64,000 nt of DNA, taken from Lentilactobacillus farraginis DSM 18382 = JCM 14108. GTDB lineage: Bacteria > Bacillota > Bacilli > Lactobacillales > Lactobacillaceae. A model generated the notes under the pieces. That model was given only the letters and a program-made list of their open reading frames with translations, had not been told where the DNA came from and did not search any database. The stretch spans positions 62,001 through 126,000 of the forward strand of contig NZ_BAKI01000002.1 of the NCBI RefSeq assembly GCF_000583655.1, given 5' to 3'. This document shows positions 35,788-45,048 of this stretch, piece after piece (the first letter of the stretch is position 1; the number at the start of each line of letters is the position of its first letter). A program made the translations under genes and the position numbers.

Positions 35788-35825
35788 ATTTTAATCCAAT
35801 ATTGAAATCAAGGAGGATTTTTATT

Positions 35826-37486
35826 ATGAAAAGCGATGTTGAAATTTCCCAGGAAGCTAAGATGGCTCCTATTACAACAGTGACAAATCAACTTGGAATC
35901 GATCCGGATGATCTTGAACAATATGGTAAGTTTAAAACAAAGGTCAACTTTGACCCGACAGCCAGTCATCAAGACGGCAAATTAATTTTAGTTACCTCAA
36001 TTAATCCGACTGCCGCCGGTGAAGGAAAAACGACGGTTACTATTGGTCTGGGTGACGCGTTTAAGGAATTACATAAAAACGTTGTGCTTGCCTTACGGGA
36101 ACCTTCGTTAGGCCCCGTAATGGGTATGAAAGGCGGTGCAACCGGTGGTGGGTACGCCCAGGTCGTGCCAATGGAAGATATTAACCTTCACTTCACAGGT
36201 GACTTTGACGCTTTGACCGAGGCCCACAATACTTTGGCTGCATTAATTGATAACCATATTCAGCATGGGAATCAGTTAAATATTGATCCACGTCAAATCG
36301 TTTGGAAGCGGGTATTGGATGTCAATGATCGTGAACTTCGCCAAGTTGTAATCGGTCTTGGCGGCAGAACCTCAGGGGTTCCCCGTCAGGACGGCTTTGA
36401 TATCACAGTTGCCAGCGAGCTGATGGCAATCCTGTGTCTGGCAACCAGTCTGCAGGATTTGAAAAAGCGAATCAGCAAAATCCTGATTGGTTATACGTAT
36501 GACCGTCAGCCGGTTTACGTTAGCGATCTTCACGTTGAAGGTGCTTTAACACTGCTGCTTAAAGACGCGGTTAAACCAAATTTGGTTCAAACACTTGAGC
36601 AGACACCTGCATTTATTCATGGCGGTCCCTTTGCAAACATCGCGCATGGCTGCAACAGTATTTTAGCTACCAAAGCGGCCTTGGCATATGGCGATTACGC
36701 GATTACCGAGCTGGCTTCGGCTCTGACTTGGGTGCCGAGAAGTTTATGGATATTGTAACGCCGAGATTAAACAAAACACCTGACTGTGTCGTGGTTGTTG
36801 CAACAGTTCGCGCTTTAAAGCTCAACGGCGGTGCCGATAAAAAAGAATTGAATGTTGAAAATCTGGCAGCCTTAAAAAAGGGCGTTGTCAATTTGAAGCG
36901 CCACGTAGAAGGTATGCAGCAGTACGGCAAGCCGGTAATTGTGGCAATCAACAAATTTGCCACTGATTCCGATGATGAATTAAGCTACTTATCAAACTAT
37001 GTTAAAAACACACTCAAAGTAACCGGCGAAATTATCAATAGTTGGGCTCAGGGTGGCCAAGGCGGTCTTGACTTGGCTAAAAAAGTAATTGCGGCATGCG
37101 ACACGCCAGCTGACTTTCATCGGCTTTATGATGAAAATGCCGGTGTTTTAGAGAAAATGCAGGCAATTGTAACCCGGATTTATGGTGGTGCCAACGTAGA
37201 ACTATCCAGAAAAGCCAAGAATCAGTTGAAACGAATCGAAAAAATGGGTTACGATCACTTGCCTGTTTGCATGGCGAAAACTCAGTACTCTTTTACTGAT
37301 AATGCTAAACAATTAGGCGCCCCGGAAAATTTCACGATTCACGTTTCCGACCTGCAGCTTAAATTAGGGGCTGGCTTTATTGTGGCGCTTACTGGTAAAA
37401 TATTAACAATGCCCGGTTTGCCAAGTCATCCGGCAGCTTTGGACATGGATATTGATGAAAACGGTCGAATTACCGGCCTATTCTAA
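35826..37486 (+). CDS. fhs: Formate--tetrahydrofolate ligase (frame broken once)
   Basis: About 553 residues when repaired. It charges THF with formate using ATP to give 10-formyl-THF for purine and fMet synthesis. It has the P-loop [17 protein letters not shown], the [20 protein letters not shown] block (quoted in part) and FNIxHGCNS-like NIAHGCNS. The break near 36710 is mended by one G in GAG_CTGG, giving [18 protein letters not shown] 35826 is 8-9 bases behind AAGGAGG. It connects functionally to the folate operon at 47-51 kb. Confidence 0.93.
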
Positions 37487-37500
37487 AAGGGGATTTTTAG

Positions 37501-37941
37501 TTGCCAGTTATAGTTATTATCGGCATTCTGTTACTAATCGGGCTCGATCAGCTTGTGAAGCATTGGGTCGTTGGAACATTGGCGCTTGGACAATCGTTTT
37601 CGGTGGTTCCAGGCGTTTTGTCGATTACTCGGATAAATAATACCGGTGCTGCCTGGAGCATTTTATCAGGCCACCAATTTATTTTTGTACTCATTGCGAT
37701 TGTAGCCGCTATCTTGATTGGTTATTTTTTAATTCATTATTGGTCGAATTTGTGGTATCGATTTGGATTAAGCCTGCTTTTTGCCGGAACAATCGGGAAT
37801 GTGATCGATCGAATCTTCAGCAATCATGTTGTTGACATGTTTCAACTGGATTTTATCAATTTTCCAATTTTTAATTGCGCCGATATGTATTTAACCATTG
37901 GGATCTTAATTATTGGATTTGCGATTATCCGTGAAAAGTAG
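37501..37941 (+). CDS. lspA: Prolipoprotein signal peptidase
   Basis: A 146-residue membrane aspartyl protease that removes lipoprotein signal peptides. Four hydrophobic segments are visible. The first catalytic Asp is in GNVIDRI and the second in FNCADMY; the family more often has FNVADS, so Cys and Met here are mild departures. NNTGAAWSI is conserved. The start is TTG 37501 behind AAAAGGGG. It is followed by rluD, the usual lspA-rluD pair. Confidence 0.92.
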   Translation: MPVIVIIGILLLIGLDQLVKHWVVGTLALGQSFSVVPGVLSITRINNTGAAWSILSGHQFIFVLIAIVAAILIGYFLIHYWSNLWYRFGLSLLFAGTIGNVIDRIFSNHVVDMFQLDFINFPIFNCADMYLTIGILIIGFAIIREK

Positions 37942-37957
37942 AGCGAGGGAAGCCAGA

Positions 37958-38868
37958 TTGTCTAAAAAATTTGAAATTACCGATGAATTGGGACGTTTAG
38001 ATAAAATTGTGAGCGAATTGGATTCCCAAATAAGTCGGTCGAAAGCAAAAAAAATGATTGAAGACGGCACGATTACCGTCAATGATGAAAAAAAGAAGCC
38101 CAAGTATGAAACCAAGCCGGCCGACATTATTTTGGTTCAAGACCTTCAGCCGAAGTCTGTTCAAATTGAGCCGGAAAACATCCCGCTTGATATTGTTTAT
38201 GAAGATGATGATGTCATCGTGGTCAATAAGCCGCAAGGAATGGTTGTCCATCCTTCCGCGGGTCATCCCAACCATACGTTGGTGAACGCGCTGCTGTTTC
38301 ACAGCCCGCTTTCTACCATTAACGGTCAGTATCGTCCGGGAATCGTCCATCGTATTGATAAGGATACTTCCGGCCTCTTGATGGTTGCCAAAAACGATGA
38401 TGCCCATAGAGCGTTATCCGAACAGCTAAAGGCTAAAAAGAACCTGCGAAAATACGTTGCCTTGGTTCACGGAAGAATCAAAGAGAATACCGGTGTGATC
38501 AACGCACCGATTGGTCGTTCACCGAAGGATCGAAAAAACAGGCAGTCGTTTTAAATGGCCGACCGGCGATTACCCATTTTAAAGTGCTGGAGCGGTTTGC
38601 GGATTATACCTTGGTATCCTGTCGATTGGAAACCGGCCGGACCCACCAAATCAGGGTGCATATGCAGTATATTGGGCATCCATTGGTTGGCGACCCACTG
38701 TACGGTCCTAAAAAAACCATTCACGGTAACGGCCAATTCCTGCATGCACAGGAATTGGGGTTTGAACATCCACGAACCCATGAATTAATGATTTTTTCAG
38801 CACCGCTTCCTGAAGTTTTTGAGAAAACCCTGCGGACCTTGCGGGTAAATCAATCACTTGAATCTTGA
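37958..38868 (+). CDS. RluD-type pseudouridine synthase (frame broken once)
   Basis: About 303 residues when repaired. An N-terminal S4 RNA-binding domain (GRLDKIVSELDSQISRS) leads to the RluA-family catalytic core with HRIDKDTSGLLMVAK (catalytic Asp) and the later RTHQIRVHM. It isomerises uridines in large-subunit rRNA. The break near 38537 lies in an A run; adding one base restores RSPKDRKKQAVVLNGRP. TTG 37958 follows GAGGGA and overlaps nothing, whereas upstream in-frame codons lie inside lspA. Confidence 0.9.
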
Positions 38869-38894
38869 CAACTTGGCAGGACTCCCATATTCTG
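38865..38894 (+). promoter_or_regulatory. Possible promoter of pyrR-carA-carB
   Basis: TTGACA (38865-38870) overlaps the rluD stop, with TATTCT (38889-38894) at 18 bp. The remaining leader is only about 60 nt and shows neither a PyrR-binding loop nor an attenuator hairpin. Confidence 0.45.
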
Positions 38895-38959
38895 GAATGG
38901 ATAAGCAATCGTAATATAAAAATGAATGTGTGTAAAAATGATCTAAGGAGAATTTAGTA

Positions 38960-39493
38960 ATGGGCAAAATAATTTTGGATAAAATGGCCATGCAACGGGC
39001 ATTAACGCGAATCACTTATGAAATTGTCGAAAAAAACAAAGGGGTAGAAGACCTGGTTTTGATTGGAATTAAGACCAGGGGCATTTTTCTGGCCAATCGA
39101 ATTGCCGACCGGCTTCAGCAATTGGAAAATGTGACCATCCCGGTTGGAGAACTCGATATTACCAACTATCGTGATGATATCGAACACGATTCACTCAGCA
39201 CGGATGTCAAAATGTCCAATAACAAAATCGACTTTTCAGTTGAAGGAAAGCGGGTCATTCTGGTGGATGATGTTTTATACACGGGCAGAACCGTCAGAGC
39301 TGCATTATCAGCTGTCATGGATTTAGGTCGGCCAAAGAGTATTAATTTGGCGGTTTTGGTTGACCGCGGTCATCGTGAATTACCAATTCGAGCTGATTTT
39401 GTCGGCAAGAATATTCCAAGTTCCCAAAAAGAAAAGATCAAGGTATATGTATCAGAAATTGATGACAAGGACGCAGTTGAACTCATCAAATGA
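38960..39493 (+). CDS. pyrR: PyrR bifunctional pyr regulator / uracil phosphoribosyltransferase
   Basis: A 177-residue PyrR of normal length. The PRPP-binding loop is [19 protein letters not shown], and [18 protein letters not shown] is the conserved RNA- and uracil-binding region. PyrR binds pyr mRNA leaders with UMP and causes attenuation; many also have UPRTase activity. Unlike canonical pyr operons, this pyrR is followed only by divergent carA and carB genes, without pyrB, pyrC, pyrD, pyrE or pyrF. It is probably a second PyrR of the genome (inference). Confidence 0.93.
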
Positions 39494-39520
39494 TCCTTAT
39501 CCTGGTAGTGAGGAGTCAAC

Positions 39521-40612
39521 ATGACGCAAAGATATTTGATATTAGAAGATGGTTCCGCGTATGCGGGAAAAGCTTTTGGATCACTCGCCACGACTACGGG
39601 TGAACTAGTGGCCAACTCGACAATGAACGGTTATCAGGAAATTATTTCCAACCAGATTTACCATAACCAAATCATTGTTTTCACTCAAACCTCAATTGGT
39701 AATACAGGGCTCGCGCAAAACGCGTATGAGTCCGTTTTGCCGTCAGCAAAAGGGGTCATTGTCCGGGAGTATGAAAACTTGGCGACAGACCATTTTAAGC
39801 GGATCTCTTTAGATCGATATTTAAAACGACATAAGATTCCCGGCATATATGATGTGGATACCCGCCAAATTAGACGTCATTTACAGCAAAAAGGTAACAT
39901 GATGGCCAGCATTGTTGATGTTGCTGATGAACACGCTTTTGATCAATTACACGCCACGGTTTTAACCAATCAACAGGTAGCGCAGGTAGCAACCCCGAAA
40001 CCTTATCCCAACCCGGACGAGGGGGCCAACGTGATTGTCGTTGACTTCGGCTTGAAGAGCGGGATTCTTCGGGAATTATCCAAGCGGGACTGTAATGTGA
40101 CAGTTGTGCCGTGGAGTGCTACCAGTGAGGCAATTTTGGATTTGGATCCTGATGGGGTTGTACTGTCCACAGGTCCGGGAGCCCCTGGGAATTTACCTGA
40201 ATCGGTTTTACAAATGATTCGAGAAGTTCAAACGCAGGTTCCGTTATTGGGGATTGGTCTTGGTCATGAATTATTCGCGATGGCCAATGGTGCGAAAGTT
40301 GACCAGCTTCGAGTTGAACATCATGGCAGTAACCATCCGATTAGAGAGATTATTACCAACGAAATCTTTTTCTCCGGCCAAGAACAGGGCTATGCCGTCG
40401 ATTCAAAGTCAATTGATCACGCAAAATTATTTATTACCCATATTGATTTGGTAAATGGGACGGTTCAGGGGCTTAGACACCGGGATTATCCGGCTTTTTC
40501 GGTTCAATTTTCTCCAGATGGTGCCCCCGGTCCCAAAGACAGTGTTGGTTTGTTTGACGACTTTACGGAATTTATGGCAAGAAGAAGGGATAATAATGAC
40601 GACGAATATTAA
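39521..40612 (+). CDS. CarA-like carbamoyl-phosphate synthase small subunit, catalytic triad lost
   Basis: A 363-residue protein collinear with CarA: N-terminal domain with MNGYQEIISN and GIYDVDTRQIRRHL, then the class I glutaminase fold (VIVVDFGLKSGILREL, VLSTGPGAPGNLP). The active site is gone. The nucleophile elbow reads GIGLGHE, so the catalytic Cys is Gly246 and the following Gln is Glu250. The His-x-Glu pair of the usual QFHPE is QFSPD (Ser331, Asp333). The frame is intact with a good ribosome binding site (GAGGAG), so this is a divergent protein and not decay. It cannot hydrolyse glutamine by the known mechanism; a scaffold or sensor role is inference. It overlaps carB by 17 bases. Confidence 0.85.
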   Translation: MTQRYLILEDGSAYAGKAFGSLATTTGELVANSTMNGYQEIISNQIYHNQIIVFTQTSIGNTGLAQNAYESVLPSAKGVIVREYENLATDHFKRISLDRYLKRHKIPGIYDVDTRQIRRHLQQKGNMMASIVDVADEHAFDQLHATVLTNQQVAQVATPKPYPNPDEGANVIVVDFGLKSGILRELSKRDCNVTVVPWSATSEAILDLDPDGVVLSTGPGAPGNLPESVLQMIREVQTQVPLLGIGLGHELFAMANGAKVDQLRVEHHGSNHPIREIITNEIFFSGQEQGYAVDSKSIDHAKLFITHIDLVNGTVQGLRHRDYPAFSVQFSPDGAPGPKDSVGLFDDFTEFMARRRDNNDDEY

Positions 40613-43109
40613 AAAGCTGCTCCTACTCGGTGGCGGGCCAACCAATATCGGTCATGAAAACGAGTTGGACGCGGCTGCGTATGAGCGGCTGACGGCAATT
40701 AAAAAGACCGGCACGCAGGTCATTTATGTGGATGACAATCCCTTTTCATTTGCAAGTGAGGAAGTTCAGCCAGCTGATGTTTACGTCCAGGCAGTTAACT
40801 TTCAAAACGTCGTGAAGATCATTGAGAAAGAAAAGCCGGACGCAATTATGCCCAAAATTGGCGGTTTAAATGCAATGCAAGTTGCTTGGCAGTTGGAAGA
40901 AAGCGATGTTTTAGCCAGTCATAATATTCAATTACTCGGAATTCGACCCATTGATTTGCGAAAAGTACTCGATAACCAGCAGCTTCGAGAGATGTTGACT
41001 GAAACGGGTGAACCGATTATTGCGTCCAAAATTGTGGCTGATGATGATGAGGCAATGGACTTTGTTCGTGATGTTGGTTTTCCGGTAATCGTTAAACCAC
41101 TATCAGCCAGTCATGATACCAGTCGATTTATCTGCAATAATACCGATGAATTGGAAGATGCGTTGGAAATCAGTTTCAAGCGAACTTATATCAAACGGGT
41201 TTCCATTGAACAGAGTATTGTTGGTTACAAAGAAATTGAAATGGTCGCTATTCGTGATGAGAACGGCAACAAACTTTTGATTTCCGGTTTGGAGGATATG
41301 GACCCGATTGGCATTCATTCCGGCGATTCAATTATTTTCGCACCGACACAAACATTGATTAACCAAGAGTATCAGGCGTTAAGAACAGCTACTTTTAGAA
41401 TTATGGATGAGATTAATGTGACGGGAACTTGTCATATACAATTTGCCCAAAGCAGAACCAATGCCAACTATTATGTAACCAAAGTCAGCCCGTTTTTTAC
41501 CCGAAACGCACTCTTAGCTGCCAAAGTAACCGGGTATCCTTTATCTTACGTTTCCACACTTTTAGAAATGGGATACGCACTGCCGGAGATTAAATTACCG
41601 GAGAAATACAGTAAATATCTGCCGTTTATGGAACCAACAATGGACCATGTGGTTGTTAGAATTCCGTTATGGCCGTTTAGAGATATTCCGGATGTGGATC
41701 AGCATTTAAATACACTCATGAAATCAGTCGGTTCAACAATTGGTGTTGGCCGAACAGTTGAAGAAGCAATTATGAAAGCCATGCACAGTTCGCAGTTTTC
41801 ACCTCGAGACATTTTACCAAGTGTCTCCAAAGTGAATGATGATGACGTGATTAATCAATTGATTCATCCACTTGCCAGTCGTATCCTGATTTTGATGGAA
41901 GCCCTTCGGCGAGGTTTCTCCATTGATGAACTTTCCGAGCTGACTAAAATTGATCGATTTTATTTTTATAAAATGAATCAGCTACTACGGGCGCAGGATT
42001 TTGTGATTAATAACCCACTTTCACCAACAGCTGTTGAAGTTGGGCACAAATACGGTTTTGGTGATGGTATGTTGGCTGAATTATGGCATGTCAATATTTC
42101 AACCATTGAACGGATGAATCGAAATGCCAAACAAAAAGTAACCTTTAAAGAAGTTGAACCCAGTGCGGGCGAATTCATGGAAGCAACCAATGTTTTCTAC
42201 AGCAGTTATGAATTGGAAAATGAAAGTCGGGCCTGTCCTGGTAAAACAGCACTGGTAATTGGGCGAGGCGGCAATCAGCTGGGGCCGAATGCGGCAGCAG
42301 ACTACTACACCGCTCAGATTTTAAATACAACTCGTAAAGCGGGCTACCAGACGATTATTATGAATACCAATCCCAATGCTATCTCATTGGCACCGGCGCT
42401 TAGTGATAAGCAGTACATTGAGCCGATTCAATTGGGTAATATTTTAAACATCGTAAATCTGGAAAAACCGGACATTATTTTCCTGCCGGGAAATCGACAT
42501 TACTTATCGAATAAATTGCGTGAGTTTGCGGATTTAAATATGGTTGTCCTACCTCCTGACCAAAAGGTTGCTAAATACAAACAAAAACAAGCAACGGACG
42601 CGGTTGATCTCTTTATCGATCAGGATCGAATATTGCCTATTACAACTATCTCGTTTTACACAAAAAGTCATCGAACGGAATTGCGGTATATCAATGATTA
42701 CCAACAACCGATGGCGCATTGGCAGCGTGAGGAAAACGATTTAATTACTGAAGCAATTTCCAAAATCGATACCAGTCAGTGGCAGGGATTGGTTCAAGTT
42801 TTATTTTATAAAGACGCGGCAGCAACTTACCAATTTGCCGGAATTCGACCGATCCGAATTACCGAATCTGCTTTTTTAAATAAAACCACTGGGGTTAATT
42901 GGATTGACGCACTGGTGAAAAAATATTTGGGGATTCTGGATATTGACCAATTGGCATCATATTATCAACCAGGGATTCACAAGCGATATGCGATGATGGA
43001 GGCGGTTTTTCCTTTTAAGGAACTCCAATCAAATCGAACGGACGGTACATCTACGCAGGAAGTTGGTTCTTCGTTATCGTTTAGAAAAATTGACTCGTCA
43101 ACTATTTAA
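40596..43109 (+). CDS. CarB-like carbamoyl-phosphate synthase large subunit, degenerate and shortened
   Basis: An 837-residue protein; true CarB has about 1060. Domains in order: PreATP-grasp 1 (1-115), ATP-grasp 1 (120-380), oligomerisation domain (about 400-580; ALRRGFSIDELSELTKID, then YSSYELENES), PreATP-grasp 2 (about 590-695). A shortened second ATP-grasp then ends at AVFPFKELQ, exactly where the allosteric MGS domain normally follows. That domain is absent. In ATP-grasp 1 the glycine loop after VIVKP is ASHDTSRF. The usual EMNPR metal/ATP ligands read KVSPF (Lys296, Ser298, Phe300), and the usual Arg169 position is Lys167. GIHSGDS remains. The long frame is undamaged, suggesting selection for a non-catalytic role. 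Confidence 0.85.
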   Translation: MTTNIKKLLLLGGGPTNIGHENELDAAAYERLTAIKKTGTQVIYVDDNPFSFASEEVQPADVYVQAVNFQNVVKIIEKEKPDAIMPKIGGLNAMQVAWQLEESDVLASHNIQLLGIRPIDLRKVLDNQQLREMLTETGEPIIASKIVADDDEAMDFVRDVGFPVIVKPLSASHDTSRFICNNTDELEDALEISFKRTYIKRVSIEQSIVGYKEIEMVAIRDENGNKLLISGLEDMDPIGIHSGDSIIFAPTQTLINQEYQALRTATFRIMDEINVTGTCHIQFAQSRTNANYYVTKVSPFFTRNALLAAKVTGYPLSYVSTLLEMGYALPEIKLPEKYSKYLPFMEPTMDHVVVRIPLWPFRDIPDVDQHLNTLMKSVGSTIGVGRTVEEAIMKAMHSSQFSPRDILPSVSKVNDDDVINQLIHPLASRILILMEALRRGFSIDELSELTKIDRFYFYKMNQLLRAQDFVINNPLSPTAVEVGHKYGFGDGMLAELWHVNISTIERMNRNAKQKVTFKEVEPSAGEFMEATNVFYSSYELENESRACPGKTALVIGRGGNQLGPNAAADYYTAQILNTTRKAGYQTIIMNTNPNAISLAPALSDKQYIEPIQLGNILNIVNLEKPDIIFLPGNRHYLSNKLREFADLNMVVLPPDQKVAKYKQKQATDAVDLFIDQDRILPITTISFYTKSHRTELRYINDYQQPMAHWQREENDLITEAISKIDTSQWQGLVQVLFYKDAAATYQFAGIRPIRITESAFLNKTTGVNWIDALVKKYLGILDIDQLASYYQPGIHKRYAMMEAVFPFKELQSNRTDGTSTQEVGSSLSFRKIDSSTI

Positions 43110-43137
43110 AATCACGTTATTGGTAAAATACCGATTA

Positions 43138-43183
43138 AAAAGGCGTTACCTTTTCCAATCTGGATAATGGTAACGCTTTTTAA
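43138..43183. terminator. Bidirectional terminator between carB and rqcH
   Basis: AAAAAGGCGTTACC (43138-43151) pairs with GGTAACGCTTTTT (43170-43182), with A and T runs either side, between convergent genes. Confidence 0.85.
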
Positions 43184-43187
43184 ATCA

Positions 43188-44905
43188 TTATTTTTTAGCA
43201 TTTTCAGATAACTGGTTAACCAGCTTTTCATCCGGATCAACCAAGACTGTCTGCTGACTATCGTAAATAACGTAACCCGGTTTAGTTCCGTTTGGTTTAC
43301 GAACATTTTTGACGCGTGTATAATCAACCGGCACTTTTGTTGATTGCTGGGCCTTTGAAAAATAAGCGGCCAACGCAGCTGCTTCGTCAATTGTTTCCTG
43401 AGAAGGATCAAAACTTCTAATAATTACGTGAGAACCGGGAATATTCTTGGTATGAAGCCACGTCTCCCGTTTATCAGCGGTATGCATGGTCAGCCGCTCA
43501 TTTTGAAGGTTATTTTTCCCAACTAATATCTCTGTGCCGTCACTTGAAACAAACTTTTCCGGTTTATTAATTTTTCGGCGTTTATTTTTCTTCTTTTTGT
43601 GTTGTTCATGATCTTTAAGGTAATGACCCTGTTCCAATTCGTAACGGATATCAACCAGATCTTCAGGTTTTGCCAATTCGATTTGTGATTGAATGCTTTC
43701 GAAATAATCGATTTCCTGTTGGGTCAAATGAATCTGCTCATTTAAATATTTAACGGCACTTTTTAATTTTTGATACCGTTTAAAATATTTTTGTGCATTT
43801 TCGGACGGCGATTGCTGGTTTGAAAGCTTGATTTTAATTGGCGCGTTGTTTTCGTAATAGTTGGGCAATTCAATGGTCGTCATCCCGCGTTGAATTTTAT
43901 TGAGGTACGTAGTTAGAATTTCGCCCTTTACCCGATACTCGTCTGCATTTTCGGTTTCTTTAAGATCTTTTTTAAGCCGCTTTAACTTGGTCCGATTCTT
44001 CTTAAGCTGTTTTTTAACAACCTGAATTAAGACGGCACCTTGCTCGCGAACCCGGTCTCGCTGGGCCCGTGTTGCAAAATAAGCATCTAATAAATCACTT
44101 AAAGTAGGGTAGAATTCATTTTTATCTGTATCTGGATAAGGAAATGCGGTAAAATTAATCTTGTTATTACCAATATGGCTCAAGGTTGGCTTTGGTGAAT
44201 TGAATTGTTCAAAGAACGCTTTAAAATTTTCTTCAACATGGGTGTCTTTATGCAAAGCCTGAGCCAGTGCTTTGGCAGTATCTTTTCCCAAACCCTGAAT
44301 TGTTTTTTGAAGCGCACCTGCCAACACGTCAACATTTGGATAATCCTTAATCAATTGTGTAATATCATTAAACGAGGTCTTGGCAAAGGGATTCTGCAAG
44401 TCCTGTTAGGTGGATTAATATAGGTGGCACCTGGTAATAATAGCCGATAGCGATTAACATCTGATCCGACGTGTTTAATCGCATCGATAATCCGATTATC
44501 CGATCGGCTGATCAAAATGATGTTGCTATGGCGGGCCATTATTTCCACAATAAGATTAAGCTTGGTTTGGTCACCCAATTCGTTTCGACCGGTGAATCCC
44601 AATTGAAGGACCCGATCATTATCCAACTGGTGAACTTCGGTAAGAATGGCACCATTTAAATGCTTTCGCATAATCATTGCGAAGTTGGTTGGCACAGCAG
44701 GGTTGACATAGGGAATCTTGGTAACTTGAATTCTTGCATAAGTCGGATTAGCCGACAAGAGCAGTTGATGATTTTTTCCATGGGCTCTAATTGTTAAAAT
44801 TAATTCATTTGGATAAGGCTGGTTGATTCGGCTAACTCGGCCAGTTTGGAGAAGCGCCGTCAATTCCTGCTTCATAGAATGAATAAAAGATCCGTCGAAT
44901 GACAT
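43188..44905 (-). CDS. rqcH: Rqc2/RqcH (NFACT, FbpA family) ribosome quality-control factor (frame broken once)
   Basis: About 572 residues when repaired. An N-terminal NFACT-N domain (MSFDGSFIHSMKQEL, then the RINQPYPNELILTIRA region) is followed by a long coiled coil. The C-terminal NFACT-R domain has TWLHTKNIPGSHVIIRS. RqcH binds stalled 50S subunits and adds C-terminal Ala tails; older literature calls it a fibronectin-binding protein. The break near 44404 is repaired by one base, giving PPNQDLQNPFAKTSF. On the plus strand this is a lost G in CTGGTTAGG. Start ATG 44905. Confidence 0.9.
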
Positions 44906-45048
44906 TGTATCACTCACTTTCGTATATATAGCAATTACTAGTATACCGCACTTTATCAACTGATGCGAAGGGTAACCCGGAGATTAAAACTGATTTTAAG
45001 TCCGGCCGGCTGCTGAGTTTGAGATTTGAATAAACCTTTGCGCTTTTT

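Follow-up and report, generated by a model that had tools for sequence, protein, structure and literature searches.

We report here on a module in a 64,000-nt stretch of Lentilactobacillus farraginis DSM 18382 = JCM 14108 (hereafter the window; positions 62,001-126,000 of contig NZ_BAKI01000002.1), in which pyrR is followed by genes resembling those for the small (CarA) and large (CarB) subunits of carbamoyl phosphate synthetase (CPS). Judged from their sequences, these two genes encode a pseudoenzyme pair, i.e., proteins that have lost their catalytic residues and are maintained under purifying selection. A dead CPS at the old pyrimidine-gene site of most sampled lactobacilli is real, old and conserved, and not an artefact, and its retention suggests that CPS, a textbook enzyme, has a second, non-chemical job. 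We consider it probable that lactobacillal CPS had an older second function, independent of catalysis, and that the pair still carries it.

Loss of catalytic residues and retained fold

The module (all module coordinates are in window numbering) consists of three intact open reading frames (ORFs) on the forward strand, i.e., pyrR (38960-39493; 177 amino acids), the carA-like gene (39521-40612; 363 amino acids) and the carB-like gene (40596-43109; 837 amino acids), the latter two sharing 17 nt. The PyrR is ordinary and complete, while CarA presents the small-subunit fold without the catalytic triad and CarB the large-subunit fold without the Mg/ATP residues, as anticipated by the original prediction of a normal PyrR followed by two inactive synthase-like subunits encoded by overlapping genes. 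Residue numbers for catalytic positions are those of E. coli CarA and CarB; the catalytic residue assignments and CarB domain names follow general usage, and the letters were checked on the E. coli carAB record. At the amidotransferase triad (Cys269, His353 and Glu355), window CarA has Gly, Ser and Asp, the Gly at the nucleophile site being codon 246 of the window gene (40256-40258, forward strand). The first ATP-grasp site of window CarB shows the changes N283H, E299K, N301S and R303F as well as loss of the glycine pair 175/176; the Lys at the metal ligand Glu299 site is codon 296 of the window gene (41481-41483, forward strand). Moreover, the second ATP-grasp domain is partly deleted, with the second-site residues changed or gone, and the C-terminal allosteric (MGS-like) domain is absent, as 0 residues align past E. 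coli residue 940.

Gly was found at the Cys269 position in all 37 first homologues, and Glu299, Asn301 and the glycine pair 175/176 were altered in all 24 sequences of the genus. We then turned to 40 genera of the Lactobacillaceae, each represented by one genome or more, and read the sites (genera, families and genomes are designated by g, f and G codes, respectively). In a larger alignment of 77 rows (48 with Gly and 29 with Cys), every Gly row had at least 1 of 11 first-site and at least 3 of 8 second-site CarB positions changed, and His353 was kept in one of the 48. This set, like the later analyses, was compiled after exclusion of L206 (a second CarA in G065, present as a fragment); L255 and L297 represent one gene, and L241, L245 and L257 duplicate rows already included. 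Among the 29 Cys rows, CarB departures were limited to one position of L205 and to L172 from G078, which retains Cys269 but has lost His353, Glu355 and residues of CarB. These results indicate that both window subunits are catalytically dead. Could the pair still be active on another substrate? Such activity would be in keeping with the retention of the first-site residues E215, H243 and Q285 in the 24 genus sequences and most others, and with G066, which departs at just 1 of the 11 first-site positions; however, it would have to be reconciled with the uniform changes at Glu299, Asn301 and the glycine pair in the genus, the partial deletion of the second ATP-grasp domain and the absence of the amidotransferase nucleophile from all Gly rows, and we regard it as quite improbable.

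The overall fold appears to be retained. Foldseek comparison of the predicted structures with E. coli CPS gave template modeling (TM) scores of 0.89 for CarB and 0.92 for CarA (predicted local distance difference test values, in this order, of 83 and 86.5). Compared to the pyrimidine-type CPS (CarA/PyrAa plus CarB/PyrAb; E. coli structures 1c30 and 1cs0), the window pair shares fold, gene order and gene overlap but has neither nucleophile nor metal ligands, its second ATP-grasp domain is incomplete and its allosteric domain is missing; it is thus not an active member. A new domain inside the shortened CarB was considered and rejected, as the predicted structure can be superposed on the large subunit of CPS from end to end. 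Window CarA scored above two NCBIfam cut-offs (405.5 vs. 221 and 352.9 vs. 307.35), so that automatic annotation would label the dead small subunit as active; window CarB scored below its cut-offs (532.6 vs. 1027 and 512.9 vs. 599).

Purifying selection and shift of constraint

As synonymous sites were saturated in most pairs, few of the 276 sequence pairs were usable for dN/dS, which had a median of 0.013 and a maximum of 0.037 for CarA (8 usable pairs) and a value of 0.033 for CarB (1 usable pair). Compared to G006 from the same genus, identity was 89% for CarA, 76% for CarB and 97% for PyrR; among the flanking genes it was 74% for rluD, 76% for lspA, 76-77% for rqcH, 83% for degV and 80-86% for fhs. 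CarA thus exceeds all flanking genes in conservation in this comparison, and CarB is level with the lower ones. These data indicate that the pair is kept under purifying selection. Pseudoenzymes in general represent dead folds kept by selection, often as regulators or scaffolds, and the window pair is likewise a dead fold under selection.

Constraint was compared between 21 dead and 22 active copies, using one row per genus and an active set from which L172, L203, L205, L006 and E. coli had been excluded. Pairwise identity over the whole CarA was 0.582 in both dead and active copies, while CarA residues 121-180 showed an identity of 0.656 in dead vs. 0.392 in active copies. For the whole CarB the values were 0.367 (dead) vs. 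0.711 (active). Residues 421-450, in the oligomerisation domain (41856-41945, forward strand), again showed the higher identity in dead copies (0.642, vs. 0.524 in active ones), and residues 641-837 showed 0.218 vs. 0.657. Block permutations matched the best window in 5 of 5000 (CarA) and 30 of 5000 (CarB) cases; when the blocks were smaller and the scan was coarser, 0 of 2000 did so.

An interdomain motif of dead CarA and its distribution among active CarA

Between the two domains of CarA lies the motif H138..D141 Q142..A145.V147 (codons 138-147 of the window gene; 39932-39961, forward strand), which is invariant, being complete in 51 of 51 Gly-CarA scored. As the motif was defined on dead copies, the test was made on active ones. 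Eighteen genomes were found to contain a dead CarA alongside an active one, and in all 18 the dead copy carried 5 of 5 motif residues. Active CarA with a dead partner had 0 to 2 of the five residues in 19 of 19 copies (two of which the tree assigns to the arginine type), whereas active CarA without a dead partner had at least four in 18 of 22 copies; all five were present in 16, including the inactive-looking G078. Three further partnerless active copies also carry the motif; L249, L250 and L253 (active CarA of family f4) were outside the count and were examined later. For CarB, the windows best separating the five active copies of motif-bearing genomes from 16 relocated ones fell in residues 421-465, with a mild effect; this stretch overlaps residues 421-450.

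The simplest reading of this dissociation is that a second function of the resident CPS was kept after its chemistry was lost, the other copy having been duplicated or imported. The pyrimidine-type CPS of Lactobacillales would then have had a second, non-catalytic job, borne by the H..DQ..A.V segment of CarA and perhaps shared by the oligomerisation domain of CarB; where another CPS is present, or the pathway has been lost, the resident copy would retain this second job alone. The pair would still assemble as a CPS-like complex without chemistry, and the role of this complex would be docking or allosteric regulation, most likely to control pyrimidine supply. We propose such a complex because the fold is kept and because constraint is on the interdomain segment and the oligomerisation domain, not on the active sites. 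If this is true, genomes with paired active and dead copies offer a way to the second function.

Several observations weigh against a second function kept by the resident copy. The motif rule has exceptions, i.e., two copies in G074 (g46, which has no PyrR), G042 (f7) and G043 (f8), so that the second function would be confined to some lineages. The relocated active copies, two of 19 being of arginine type, may have been imported and have lacked the motif from the outset. The Fisher's exact test (P = 5 × 10-8) overstates the dissociation, as the rows are related, and for G106 and G112 the best CarA match alone was read, so that a second copy is possible. Finally, some relocated active CarB resemble dead CarB in residues 421-465.

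Distribution and gene neighborhood

Named loci with CarB 63-91% identical to that of the window numbered 14, i.e., 13 from Lentilactobacillus (the best from L. hilgardii) and one from a Lactobacillaceae bacterium represented by a metagenome-assembled genome; plasmid relatives were limited to two short, weak matches. All 24 genomes of the genus carry the pair, including the short CarB (61-91% identity among relatives, all whole ORFs), so that the arrangement described in the original prediction extends to the relatives of the window's strain. Across the sampled family, Gly-CarA plus a CarB without catalytic residues was found at the site in 33 of 40 genera, and cases also occur in families f2 and f4. 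Dead CarB was short in 26 genera and full length, though without catalytic residues, in seven (g11, g14, g34, g38, g44, g54 and g57). Six genera (g12, g13, g42, g47, g48 and, represented by G112, g50) instead present an active pyrP-B-C-A-B operon, and g46 (G074) has neither dead pair nor active operon at the site.

Among the 33 dead-pair genera, 32 have rluD immediately or almost immediately upstream (in g45 it is not visible on the contig), and in 23 rqcH is seen on the downstream side within the stretch read. The proposed neighborhood of pyrR beside the dead pair was recovered in 28 of these genera, with pyrR directly upstream of dead carA in 23 and pyrP intervening in five; pyrR is absent from the site in g3, g6, g34, g44 and g54. 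If the second-function reading is right, a CPS complex without catalysis is present in a large family of bacteria from food and the gut, and metabolic models counting the pair as CPS would be wrong.

Origin of the pair and number of losses

The pyr operon of the B. subtilis type has the order lspA-ylyB-pyrR-pyrP-pyrB-pyrC-pyrAA-pyrAB-...-yloA. Its chromosomal place and neighbors are the same as those of the dead-pair site; however, Lentilactobacillus retains pyrR and dead carAB alone, with a leader that lacks a PyrR element. Genome G045 (family f2; locus L295, 461-10048) carries the whole ancestral operon, i.e., lspA-rluD-pyrR-B-C-A-B-D-F-E-rqcH, in which CarA has Gly and CarB has lost 7 of 11 first-site and 4 of 8 second-site positions but still scores above the curated cut-offs. 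Four genomes (G033, G036, G066 and G085) show the order pyrR-pyrP-dead carA-dead carB, and G344 (f4) has the dead pair at rluD-pyrR plus a separate active operon. Together with G078, these operons and the neighbors of the site indicate that the dead pair is the remainder of an ancestral pyr operon (rluD-pyrR-...-carAB-...-rqcH) at its original site.

Repeated loss of catalysis is likely. On the 77-row tree the Gly state must change four times, starred branches forcing at least two of the changes, and on a 96-row quick tree it must also change four times, at least three of the changes being forced; L079 was excluded from the 96-row and denser-sampled trees. With denser sampling, the dead cases of family f4 fall among active f4 copies in the tree; among the f4 loci L242, L243 and L245-L255, 12 of 13 have Cys and one (G039) has Gly. 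Two results qualify this: the approximately unbiased test did not reject a single clade of all Gly rows (P = 0.475), which makes repeated loss likely rather than shown, and L172 (G078) adjoins the dead group in the tree and maybe represents no separate loss.

Persistence without the pathway or PyrR

In five genomes of the genus (G002, G007, G015, G018 and G020), pyrR and the pair are retained although canonical CarB is missing and PyrB is missing as well (best PyrB matches at most 35% identical, or none). In G001, canonical CarB was read in two frames. Elsewhere, G069 and G104, without a PyrB match, and G079, with a 33% match only, also keep the pair. The PyrB-less genomes that keep the pair are 1.2-1.9 Mb in size. 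Moreover, G331, a single 1.58-Mb contig, carries the dead pair between rluD and rqcH with one CarA match and no PyrR, and in G062 (87% complete) the pair is likewise present without PyrR. As the pair is kept without canonical CPS in five genomes and without PyrR in G331, its role is not to assist a working CPS, nor can PyrR be what it serves in every genome. The constant part is the dead synthetase, and PyrR is not a required partner of the pair.

These genomes bear on two other explanations. The first is that the pair modulates the true CPS as a mixed oligomer, decoy or ammonia partner; an active carA is also present in many pair genomes (18 with both were examined) and the CarB oligomerisation domain is conserved. 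The original prediction included such an action on the true synthase, and the window's genome does contain one intact second carAB, located beside and divergent from pyrBC, with a complete CarB that has its catalytic residues; this carAB appears to be of arginine type, judging from its tree position with the third CarA of G293. As a general role, however, this action fails on the five genus genomes that keep the pair without canonical CarB or PyrB, and the single CarA match of G331 also argues against it; we regard it as very improbable. The second explanation is that the pair is a decaying, functionless remnant, kept by the short time elapsed or by the need for the upstream pyrR. Whole domains are indeed gone, the C-terminal part of CarB evolves fast, and G032 has very divergent copies of the pair. 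A remnant is nonetheless extremely unlikely given whole ORFs in 24 of 24 genus genomes, very low dN/dS in the usable pairs, a CarA as conserved as active CarA, a motif invariant across genera, and survival in small PyrB-less genomes and in one without pyrR.

PyrR as a possible client

Window PyrR scored above the PyrR equivalog cut-off (NF003548; 266.1 vs. 218 bits), and its phosphoribosyl pyrophosphate (PRPP) loop, covering 13 residues, is present. No other PyrR was found in the window's genome; the next match, 27% identical, is probably Hpt. The module PyrR is also the only PyrR in each of the 24 genus genomes, so that the "second PyrR locus" of the original prediction fails here, although the underlying two-PyrR precedent fits the Lactiplantibacillus-like genomes G293 and G083 (labeled on gene content and relative positions). 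These carry one PyrR in a pyrR-B-C-A-B operon and a second, 64-65% identical to the first, in the dead-pair module. The three CarA loci of G293 (1.658, 0.887 and 2.787 of 3.243 Mb) would fit a reversed L. plantarum map.

The absence of a PyrR attenuator from the 60-nt leader, also part of the original prediction, was confirmed: Rfam found no PyrR RNA element in 37000-45000 (one chance-level match belonged to another family), and in 23 of the 24 genus genomes, i.e., those with elements found, none was located at the module (coordinates compared by eye). Three PyrR elements were found in the window's genome, on contigs C110, C125 and C127, one of them above the gathering score; they precede pyrBC, a uracil-permease-like gene and an NCS1-type nucleobase transporter gene (the last at L084 5884-6001 on contig C110, 52.4 bits, just below the gathering score). 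As elements are located at pyrBC and two permease genes but not at the module, PyrR acts in trans, and autoregulation through an element in its own operon leader was not found. In G002, which has no PyrB, a PyrR element is located ahead of genes for a PhnD-like substrate-binding protein, an ABC ATPase and two permease-like proteins (one tested), along with a 2',3'-cyclic-nucleotide phosphodiesterase/5'-nucleotidase-like gene (whole region, L087 1629-6891); these genes possibly represent PyrR-controlled nucleotide uptake. In the fast-evolving genus g10, the PyrR of G032 (L079, 8582-9058) has lost its PRPP loop (10 residues replaced) and keeps the GHRELPI part.

If the pair forms a regulatory complex, PyrR would be its leading client, which we put forward tentatively; the arguments are adjacency, the retention of both by PyrB-less genus genomes, and the association with a second PyrR in Lactiplantibacillus-like genomes. 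A stricter version, in which the pair is an obligate co-regulator that binds PyrR and tunes its RNA binding (i.e., a sensing or signalling unit), is possible, if doubtful. This version is consistent with adjacency in 28 of 33 genera, with the sole PyrR of the 24 genus genomes being that of the module, with retention of the pair in PyrB-less genomes where PyrR elements persist (an element in G002 precedes a uracil-permease-like gene), and with g46, where PyrR is lacking in 5 of 5 genomes and the one genome read and checked for the dead pair, G074, also lacks it. G278 has no PyrR and one CarA match; G278 and four further g46 genomes were covered at match level. Several findings point away from PyrR as client: the pair occurs without PyrR in G331 and in G062, and apart from pyrR in g3 and g6, and PyrR at dead-pair loci shows no strong group-specific residues, with weak differences at positions 9, 12, 173 and 174. 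Moreover, the adjacency is ancestral and needs no function. The pairing with PyrR as a regulatory unit, as originally proposed, therefore holds insofar as the pair is dead, selected and mostly adjacent to pyrR, but G331, g3 and g6 indicate that PyrR is not required; this regulatory idea is possible and is not the best-supported reading, which is an older second function of CPS itself. The ligand sensing suggested in the original prediction (bicarbonate, ATP, UMP or PRPP) is conjectural, and most of the known metal/ATP-site and glutamine-site residues have been lost from the pair.

In L. plantarum, PyrR2 is described as an inorganic-carbon regulator of the pyr operon (PMC3582564), and pyrR2 is listed as lp_1782 (PMC7911632). 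The two-PyrR arrangement of L. plantarum is matched by G293 and G083, while Lentilactobacillus has the module PyrR only; by analogy, the PyrR beside the pair in the Lactiplantibacillus-like genomes is probably PyrR2. The response of PyrR2 to CO2 is thereby directly testable. The dead CPS might be a sensor of inorganic carbon (or of carbamoyl phosphate supply) that binds bicarbonate or a related ligand via the retained CPS fold. Its signal would go to the PyrR encoded with it, which in L. plantarum is PyrR2, and pyrimidine genes would thereby answer CO2; in a broader form, sensing by the lactobacillal CPS would predate the loss of chemistry in some of its copies. We consider this sensor unlikely, as metal and active-site residues are lost and the pair survives in genomes without canonical CPS. 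A dead CPS heterodimer, or pyrAa2/pyrAb2, was not found in the literature searched, which is no proof of novelty, as most subscription journals were outside its coverage.

Signals and flanking genes

Where rluD ends, upstream of pyrR, the sequence TTGACA-17-TATTCT (38865-38893, forward strand) resembles a promoter; it matches the sigma-70 consensus at 10 of 12 positions, but is weak taken alone, as the region has 16 such sites vs. 11.3 ± 3.3 in shuffled sequences. The leader of about 60 nt that lacks the PyrR-binding element occupies 38900-38959 (forward strand). The shared terminator of the original prediction was upheld in part: a strong hairpin (43133-43186, forward strand; -27.2 kcal/mol, z = -6.3), flanked by runs of A and T, follows carB and is a probable terminator, but a consensus terminator scan did not list it; an inner stem is present inside its loop.

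The upstream neighbors lspA and rluD (37501-38868, forward strand) and the frequent downstream neighbor, the rqcH/fibronectin-binding-protein gene (43188-44959, reverse strand), frame the module. In the window, the reading of fhs (35802-37486), rluD (37913-38868) and rqcH is in each case divided between two frames that overlap or adjoin, whereas relatives have single frames; pyrD (DHO_dh domain) of the same genome is also split over two frames (contig C86, 2343-3211). These splits look like indel errors of the draft assembly.

Two further genes were observed next to the dead pair in other genomes. A gene of approximately 100 codons, assigned by Pfam to DUF7671 in L076 (6249-6557), follows dead carB in several genera (also L071, L077, L165 and L168). 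In G047 (family f4), a short-chain dehydrogenase gene is located between pyrR and dead carA (L082, 8531-9343).

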